The translations under genes and the position numbers were made by a program. From IMG/VR virus record IMGVR_UViG_3300023174_000411, positions 1 to 34,228 of that record: a stretch of DNA of 34,228 nt; one strand, 5' to 3'. Below are positions 4,655-5,743 of this stretch, one piece after another (within the stretch, counting starts at the first letter, position 1; each line of letters begins with the position of its first letter). Source of the stretch: a virus. The notes under the pieces are model-generated. The model saw only the letters and a program-made list of their open reading frames with translations. It was not told where the DNA came from and searched no databases.

Positions 4655-5119
4655 ATGAAAAAATTTCTATTCAGTGTTCTTTTTTTATTGTGCGCTCCTT
4701 CCTATGCACAAACAGAGTACATTGAATCTTTAATTAAAGAAACTTATAGTCTTTATAATGGGACTGCACCATATAAAGAACCAATTATTAAGTTTGTAAC
4801 TGACCAAGAAATTGATCAATTTGTTTGCGATGGTAAGTGCCCATTTAATGTTATTGGCATTTATATCAATGATGTGATTTATATGCGCAATAACTGGGAT
4901 GCTGATAGTGACATCCAGGCATCATATTTTGTACATGAAATGGTTCACTTTCTTCAACATGAAAATAACAAGTTAACTGGTTCAGAAACTTGTGTAGAAA
5001 GACATACTTTAGAATTTGAAGCGTATAGAATACAAAATCTTTGGTTATTGAAAAGAAACAAGCAAATCCCATATATTTTGCTTTTAAGACTTACTGACTT
5101 ATCTTCTCATTGTAATTAA
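4655..5119 (+). CDS. Exported zincin-like metallopeptidase (HExxH), only rightward gene
   Basis: The 154-residue protein has an N-terminal signal peptide (MKKFLFSVLFLLCAPSYA, cleavage after about residue 18). The motif HEMVHFLQH around residue 95 fits a zinc-binding HExxH, with a downstream Glu in LEFEAYRIQ that could be the third ligand. Four cysteines (VCDGKCP, ETCVER, HCN) fit an exported, disulfide-containing protein. It lies head-to-tail against the leftward tRNA cluster and converges on the structured RNA at 5120-5576. This suggests an acquired accessory (moron) gene. It might act in the periplasm or envelope; the substrate is unknown. No ribosome binding site is visible. Confidence 0.8.
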   Translation: MKKFLFSVLFLLCAPSYAQTEYIESLIKETYSLYNGTAPYKEPIIKFVTDQEIDQFVCDGKCPFNVIGIYINDVIYMRNNWDADSDIQASYFVHEMVHFLQHENNKLTGSETCVERHTLEFEAYRIQNLWLLKRNKQIPYILLLRLTDLSSHCN

Positions 5120-5148: not shown

Positions 5149-5576
5149 AATCGATGGCGCCTCGTTGTGTGAACTCTGAAGAGCTTCACCTGCTTTCGTC
5201 CCTGGCATCTGCCTCGCACCCATTATACCGGAAGGTATGGGGCGTGTCCTTGACAGTAGTAACTACTATGGATATCACCTGTGGGGGAGGGCATTCCATT
5301 TCGTATCATACACTACTGTTTCGTCTCCTGAAGACTCGTCAGAAGGACTGTTATAGGTGCCAAGCCATTCCTTACCAGGGAACCACTTGACCGGGAGGTT
5401 ACTCCGACCACGTCTAATAACGCTTAGACGAGAACGCTTAGAGTATTCGATCTCTAAGAATCGCTAGTCATATGGTGGATCTAGGCACCTGAGAGTTTTG
5501 GACACTATCTGGCCAATAGTGCTGTGATATAACACAAACTCACACCTCTCCTAAACCCAAGGAGACACGGGGGTTT
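5120..5576 (-). ncRNA. Large structured non-coding RNA carrying a hammerhead ribozyme
   Basis: This 457-base stretch has no credible gene and is richer in G+C than its surroundings. It begins at the base after the encoded CCA of tRNA-Pro. Perfect helices (plus coordinates): 5571-5576/5553-5558, 5536-5541/5493-5498, 5516-5521/5503-5508, 5452-5457/5438-5443, 5424-5429/5412-5417, 5234-5238/5225-5229 and 5165-5171/5144-5150. A 7-bp long-range helix 5484-5490/5355-5361 closes a multi-hairpin domain. The hammerhead follows at 5246-5348. I see no RNase P, tmRNA or group I signature. Large phage RNAs near tRNAs such as GOLLD or ROOL are candidates to test, but no assignment is made. Confidence 0.75.
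5246..5348 (-). ncRNA. Type I hammerhead self-cleaving ribozyme
   Basis: Read on the minus strand: stem I GTCCTT (5348-5343), core CTGACGA (5342-5336), stem II GTCT/AGAC (5335-5332 with 5326-5323), and core GAA (5322-5320). Stem III is ACAGTAGT (5319-5312) paired with ACTACTGT (5260-5253), then C (5252) and stem I AAGGAC (5251-5246). Both 6-bp stem I and 8-bp stem III are perfect. CUGAnGA, GAA, A15.1-U16.1 and the GUC triplet are all present. Cleavage is expected between 5252 and 5251. The strand enters and leaves through stem I, so it is type I. Stem III carries a 51-base apical insert with its own 5-bp helix (5295-5299/5268-5272). Confidence 0.92.
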
Positions 5577-5653
5577 TGGTCTCGGTGGCAGGGTTCGAAC
5601 CTGCGACCTCCTGCTCCCAAAGCAGGCATTCTACCAGACTGAACTACACCGAG
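5577..5653 (-). tRNA. tRNA-Pro (anticodon TGG)
   Basis: Acceptor CTCGGTG/CACCGAG is perfect. Anticodon stem CCTGC/GCAGG encloses TTTGGGA, and T-arm GCAGG-TTCGAAC-CCTGC is perfect. Discriminator A and CCA are encoded (5579-5577). The structured RNA starts at the next base, so tRNA 3' processing would define its 5' end. Confidence 0.96.
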
Positions 5654-5667
5654 AAAACTATTAAACG

Positions 5668-5743
5668 TGGTACGAGTGGCGAGACTCGAACTCGCCACCA
5701 GCGGATTAAAAGTCCGTTGCGCTACCAACTGCGCCACACTCGC
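5668..5743 (-). tRNA. tRNA-Lys (anticodon TTT)
   Basis: Acceptor GCGAGTG pairs with CACTCGT (first pair G-U). D-stem GCGC/GCGC, anticodon loop CTTTTAA inside CGGA/TCCG, and T-arm GCGAG-TTCGAGT-CTCGC are present. CCA is encoded. Its 5' half resembles the fragment at 5115-5148. Confidence 0.96.

Follow-up and report, generated by a model that had tools for sequence, protein, structure and literature searches.

A type I hammerhead ribozyme joined to a conserved pseudoknotted RNA in phage contigs: a candidate noncoding-RNA gene that would make its own 5′ end

A 34,228-nt stretch of viral DNA (IMG/VR record IMGVR_UViG_3300023174_000411, in the following called the window) carries on its minus strand a type I hammerhead ribozyme adjoined by a conserved, pseudoknotted RNA module. 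Hammerhead and module occur together in more than 50 viral contigs of IMG/VR. Including the window, 51 loci have an intact hammerhead core, and 34 non-redundant members are left after dropping those more than 90% identical. Sequence comparison supports the anatomy of the hammerhead, its coupling to the module, the hairpin Pa, the pseudoknot and the placement in tRNA arrays. We consider it likely that the two parts form a small phage noncoding-RNA gene, in which self-cleavage would make the 5′ end and release the pseudoknotted 3′ RNA. What appears new is the setting of a known ribozyme within a new conserved composite RNA. The coordinates of all features are collected in Table 1.

A preliminary description of this DNA had claimed a complete type I hammerhead, and each of its elements lies at the position claimed. 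The ribozyme shows the core of the type (CUGANGA ... GAAA ... UH) and the type I order of three stems, with stem I open. A regular-expression search of both strands of the 34-kb window returned this as the sole type I match. That such a combination would hardly arise by chance, as had also been stated, is borne out by shuffling: when the whole window was shuffled 300 times with dinucleotides preserved, the strict motif never occurred and a lenient motif occurred once in total. Furthermore, a covariance model trained on 21 relatives, with the window excluded, recovered the hammerhead at 59 bits (E = 2.3e-18). The folding energy of the region is ordinary in plain folding (z = −0.92), so that folding energy alone would have missed it. 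At the level of sequence, a type I hammerhead with a predicted cut at C5252/A5251 is strongly supported.

Table 1. Features of the hammerhead element and its surroundings in the window
Feature	Position	Strand	Details and basis
Type I hammerhead ribozyme	5348-5246 (5246..5348)	minus	sequence; motif search; model from relatives
Stem I	G5348-U5343 with A5251-C5246	minus	6 bp, perfect
Conserved core CUGACGA	5342-5336	minus	sequence
Stem II	5335-5323: GUCU 5335-5332 with AGAC 5326-5323	minus	4 bp, perfect
Core GAAA	5322-5319	minus	sequence
Stem III	5319-5312 with 5260-5253	minus	8 bp, perfect, A15.1-U16.1 included
Optional stem III extension	5311-5261 (51 nt)	minus	AUGG 5299-5296 / CCAU 5271-5268
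Flanking GAA and AGUA in stem III extension	5302-5300 and 5267-5264	minus	resembles loop-E step (by eye)
Cleavage triplet GUC	5254-5252	minus	predicted cut C5252/A5251
Conserved 3′ module, predicted 3′ cleavage product	5251-5121	minus	131 nt; ends in AACCGGAC 5128-5121; recurs 3′ of hammerhead in > 50 IMG/VR loci
Hairpin Pa	5244-5215: CGC 5244-5242 + CCCAU 5241-5237 with AUGGG 5223-5219 + GCG 5217-5215	minus	bulged U5218
Pa loop ACCUUCCGGUAUA	5236-5224	minus	sequence
Pseudoknot	UCCGGU 5232-5227 (Pa loop) with ACCGGA 5127-5122 (3′ tail)	minus	6/6 pairs in window
Small hairpin Pb	GGC 5213-5211 / GCC 5206-5204	minus	alignment + alifold
AGG directly 3′ of Pb	5203-5201	minus	candidate partner CCU 5235-5233; putative pairing
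Helix Pc	CACACAA 5171-5165 / UUGUGUG 5150-5144	minus	alignment
Separate structured stretch, tRNA-Pro to hammerhead	about 5575-5355	minus	nhmmer homologue, by-eye comparison
tRNA-Pro(UGG), nearest tRNA upstream	5577..5653	minus	ARAGORN, Rfam
Convergent ORF	4655-5119	plus	stop codon two bases from module tail in window

The Rfam hammerhead models, which the preliminary description had proposed as a check, gave no match in the window at gathering score. The best weak match at a permissive threshold was to the type III model (21.7 bits), with the wrong topology. Probably, the score of the window is lowered by the 51-nt insert in stem III. The gathering score is a score cutoff and not a structural criterion, and low scores recur among the relatives, so we do not take this result as a refutation, although the preliminary description had named it as one. 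For example, the relative L158 matches the type I model (RF00163, clan CL00010) at 27.5 bits (E = 6e-5), below the cutoff of 34. The element shares with that type the CUGANGA/GAAA/UH core, the three stems, the open stem I and the predicted cut after GUC. It differs in its fusion to a conserved pseudoknotted 3′ RNA, in a structured insert that stem III can carry, and in scoring below the gathering score. The hammerhead parts of L161 and L074 weakly match the RAGATH-1 hammerhead (RF03152), at 25.5 and 25.8 bits, respectively. However, these scores are less than half of its gathering score of 56.3, and the RF03152 model does not include the 3′ module.

The family was defined by IMG/VR scans for hammerhead cores, for the hammerhead half, for the module, and for the module with its tail. 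In the first relative, L074, retrieved by the hammerhead-core scan, the similarity extends far beyond the ribozyme (nhmmer 3.9e-16). The scan with the hammerhead half retrieved 12 new contigs, all 12 with the module, and the module-only scan five, all five with a hammerhead. There are two subfamilies by stem I, AGUCCUU/AAGGACA and UGUCU/AGACA, which share an invariant GACA in the 3′ strand. The variability of stem I cannot be read from patterns that fix one of its strands; in the initial open scan, in which stem I was left free, these two were the only stem I types found with the module. One locus, L162, is truncated by the contig end and stands outside the 51, and 12 loci from one family scan were dropped as chance matches without a hammerhead. 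The elements of L152 and L156 are 96% identical in unrelated flanks (35% identity upstream and 16% downstream), which indicates that the element is a discrete unit.

Some loci depart from this pattern. L153, L154 and L155, also outside the 51, have a U in place of the core A13 (CGUAAC for CGAAAC), while their hammerhead is otherwise preserved and the module is retained; judging by this change, their hammerheads are probably slow or dead. At 8242-8353 of L210 (minus strand), a pseudoknot module without hammerhead is found directly 3′ of a stop codon, with an additional closing stem, AACAC/GUGUU, where the hammerhead would be.

Beyond IMG/VR, a blastn search of 50,697 GenBank phage records with the window element and nine relatives retrieved no hammerhead-module member. 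The only matches were phages OLIVR1-3, with a hammerhead but without the module. An exact-pattern search of GTDB genomes found no member either, its match L176 being a chance match within a coding sequence. The 3′ module corresponds to no family in Rfam 15, at gathering or permissive thresholds, and in open-licence PMC papers we found no earlier description of a hammerhead-module RNA. Phage hammerheads as such have been described by Perreault et al. 2011 (PMC3088659), and in the available excerpts of that paper none was seen with this 3′ module. In the isolated Agrobacterium phage OLIVR1 (MT234338) the hammerhead is similar, but no Pa/pseudoknot module follows it on the 3′ side. In phage contigs, more than 100 simple type I hammerheads lack the module (L112 1264-2950, L018, L013, L023, L114 and others), often with several per contig and immediately upstream of a small gene's start codon.

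The 51-base insert that had been noticed in stem III is present. A similar extension with changed pairs lies, by eye, beside GAA and AGUA in L153 and in L154/L155; the pairs across the window, L153 and L154 are AUGG/CCAU, CGG/CCG and UGG/CCA. Compared in this way, the insert prolongs stem III by a stretch whose pairing is kept in L153-L155, and is not random filler. Most family members have a short loop in its place. Nearly identical inserts (GAGGUCUUGGUCGUUACCAGCGUAGC...) occur in L158 (1452-1477) and L178 (11707-11732), which belong to different subfamilies and have different stems I, as if stem III domains had been exchanged between the subfamilies. The stem III insert is thus optional and exchangeable.

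On the 3′ side of the predicted cut, the preliminary description had expected a piece of about 130 nt, in agreement with the 131 nt of the conserved module. In the family consensus, the predicted product begins with AAGGACACGC, followed by hairpin Pa with the loop ACCUNNNGGUGUA, and a tail, AACCNNN, is located about 90-165 nt beyond this loop. The NNNGGU of the loop pairs with the ACCNNN of the tail in a pseudoknot. The window has the traits that define the family, namely the hammerhead, Pa with a ACCUNNNGGU loop, and a complementary AACCNN tail.

The two variable bases of the pseudoknot are perfectly paired in 28 of the 34 members, whereas 20,000 shuffles gave 8.2 on average and never more than 19. 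Across 34 distinct sequences, 95.6% of the pseudoknot cells are paired. The variable pairs are seen as GC, CG, AU and UA, with four pair types at one position, and all five counted pairs of Pa vary on both sides across the family. The covariation score was 0.596, compared to 0.185 ± 0.022 in shuffled sets (0 of 500), and no slid version exceeded 0.148, for 34 distinct sequences with the middle removed, tails picked by position and six placed manually; the count of 28 is separate from this score, on nearly the same sequences. Relatedness among the sequences inflates such covariation tests; nevertheless, the pair types recur in both subfamilies.

Helix Pc, as read from the alignment, is altered yet still paired in L150 (CAUACA/UGUAUG), L164 and L165. 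The AGG between Pa and Pc could pair with the CCU of the loop to form one quasi-continuous helix, a pairing that we propose tentatively because both of its sides are near-invariant. Plain MFE folding favours an ACC/GGU hairpin within Pa, which was rejected: being invariant, it cannot account for the covariation at the NN positions. The 3′ end of the module, GUAGCGCAACCGGACUUUAAU (window 5135-5114, minus strand), closely resembles a part of the neighbouring tRNA-Lys, GUAGCGCAACGGACUUUUAAU (tRNA-Lys 5668-5743). This likeness may be due to chance, the family consensus being similar there.

The hammerhead had been described as lying inside a larger structured RNA. Structured RNA does exist upstream, but the hammerhead forms the 5′ part of an element of two parts, and its conserved partner is the 3′ piece. 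The upstream stretch is absent in L150, and for this reason a single RNA running from tRNA-Pro to the tail, with a central hammerhead, was rejected. L154/L155 have, behind their tRNA-Pro, a homologue of the first 90 nt of the upstream stretch (nhmmer 1e-8 and 2.8e-8). The stretch is also found after tRNA-Pro in L153, and by eye a related one is present in L074 (1-80), three tRNA genes away. One of its hairpins, which could dimerise, has a loop with the palindrome UGGCCA/GGCC, and its stem pairs are changed between loci (CACUAU/GAUAGUG, CGCAAUU/AAAUUGCG, CCGCU/AGCGG). Its 3′ part resembles GGACAGGGUAACAACUCAGU, and no Rfam model matched it in the window. By comparison of the loci, the upstream stretch is probably another noncoding RNA, a separate optional unit outside the element.

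In the window, tRNA-Pro is followed by this separate stretch, the hammerhead and the 3′ module. The tRNA-cluster setting given in the preliminary description holds for the window and many members, but the unit occurs outside tRNA arrays too. Within arrays, the hammerhead begins 1-10 nt past a tRNA in L064, L074, L150, L174, L185 and L198, and the next tRNA is located 116-141 nt past the cut, just beyond the tail, in L064, L074, L151, L153, L154, L155, L174, L185, L200 and L209. Outside arrays, some copies come after a stop codon (L081, L148, L160) and others stand by themselves. A promoter-like site is placed to start transcription at the hammerhead in L045, L165 and L166/L170 (p 0.002-0.009 each), and a U-run comes immediately after the tail in L008, L064, L183 and L194. 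In most family members, neither a promoter nor a terminator belonging to the element was seen, and a promoter at the hammerhead was discarded as a general rule, being seen in few members only. Between tRNA-Cys and tRNA-Asp of L074 (197-354) there is also a seemingly noncoding, hairpin-rich stretch.

In the mechanism we propose, the 5′ hammerhead would cut the transcript once, at the junction with the 3′ part. The cut would free a pseudoknotted RNA of roughly 105-180 nt across the family (131 nt in the window) with a 5′-hydroxyl end. In tRNA arrays, the hammerhead would separate this RNA from the preceding tRNA, and the 3′ end could be made by RNase P at the next tRNA, or by exonucleases. In stand-alone units, a promoter could start transcription at the hammerhead and a U-run could end it. 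Cleavage in the cell and a stable 3′ RNA are candidate steps that we infer from the sequences.

In a type I hammerhead, the cut falls 3′ of the ribozyme core. Little would be gained by the upstream tRNA, on which the ribozyme would be left as a trailer. The beneficiary would rather be the 3′ RNA, which would gain an exact 5′ end. Self-maturation is the best reading in view of the 3′-side cut, the tight coupling of hammerhead and module, and the location among stable RNAs. Against it count the A13U loci and L210, which keep the module with a mutated core or without a hammerhead, and the same loci suggest that the 3′ RNA is the part retained when the ribozyme is weakened or lost. The scarcity of promoters and terminators also counts against it, as does the start codon close behind the tail of some members, which would suit a leader RNA.

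Alternatively, the element could be a processing device only, which cuts tRNA precursors apart and in which the 3′ module is a folding scaffold. We regard this as unlikely. The element is frequently located between tRNA genes, and the reading has an analogy in the HDV-like theta ribozymes, which are proposed to process phage tRNA 3′ trailers (PMC10879173). However, a cut 3′ of the core would leave the upstream tRNA with a trailer of 50-100 nt, and many copies lie outside tRNA arrays. Moreover, the covarying pseudoknot exceeds the need of scissors, and the more than 100 other phage hammerheads do without it. As self-cleaving motifs near phage tRNAs, theta ribozymes are nearest to the element in setting, but they are HDV-like and are proposed to act on tRNA 3′ trailers (PMC10879173), whereas here the cut is 3′ of the core. 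Instead of the HDV-like nested double pseudoknot with a cut at its own 5′ end, by which theta ribozymes are recognized, the element has a hammerhead core. No HDV-type Rfam model matched the window at gathering or permissive thresholds, and the available part of PMC10879173 makes no mention of hammerheads.

It also seems improbable to us that the element is a ligand-controlled ribozyme or leader, in which the module would respond to a metabolite or protein and adjust cleavage or downstream translation. The conserved loop (ACCU..GGUGUA) and the pseudoknot are reminiscent of the core of an aptamer, stem I is in contact with the module, and an RBS and start codon (ATG) lie close behind the tail in L150, L164, L165, L166 and L171. 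Yet no shared downstream gene was seen, the neighbours being tRNAs, unrelated ORFs or, in the window, the convergent ORF, and the module is kept in loci with a mutated core or with no hammerhead. We give little credence to an ordinary phage leader hammerhead, with 3′ conservation that would merely reflect a single genomic region inherited from a recent common ancestor. Phage contigs do commonly carry simple hammerheads ahead of start codons, but Pa and the pseudoknot covary across two subfamilies, and near-identical units have unrelated flanks. A mobile, retrozyme-like RNA element spreading between phages is hardly credible, for although the near-identical units in unrelated flanks and the insert shared by L158 and L178 across two subfamilies would fit it, there are no tandem hammerheads of retrozyme type, the flanks that were inspected by eye showed neither terminal repeats nor target duplications, and tRNA-array recombination in phages accounts for the same pattern.

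For the small noncoding-RNA gene that we favour, the nearest comparison among structured RNAs near phage tRNA islands is with GOLLD and ROOL. According to PMC12286853, their function is open, and they often occur near such islands. They are, however, much larger, many GOLLD RNAs exceeding 800 nt, and the searched text of that paper does not mention hammerheads. The GOLLD and ROOL models of Rfam gave no match to the element at gathering or permissive threshold. Tentatively, the element may represent an undescribed class of phage noncoding RNA whose 5′ end is made by a ribozyme of its own and which serves a distinct function in infection, for example in relation to tRNAs, ribosomes or host RNA decay.

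Phage tRNA arrays would thereby gain a new RNA beside GOLLD, ROOL and theta ribozymes, which have open questions of their own. The family offers a conserved pseudoknot, a transcript of ~230 nt, and natural controls in the mutated core of L153-L155 and the ribozyme-free L210. To our knowledge, the purpose of natural hammerheads in bacteria and phages is mostly not clear. Here, more than 50 contigs share a hammerhead with a specific folded RNA at its cleavage junction, and this suggests a purpose for the cut, which would be to give a phage noncoding RNA its 5′ end.
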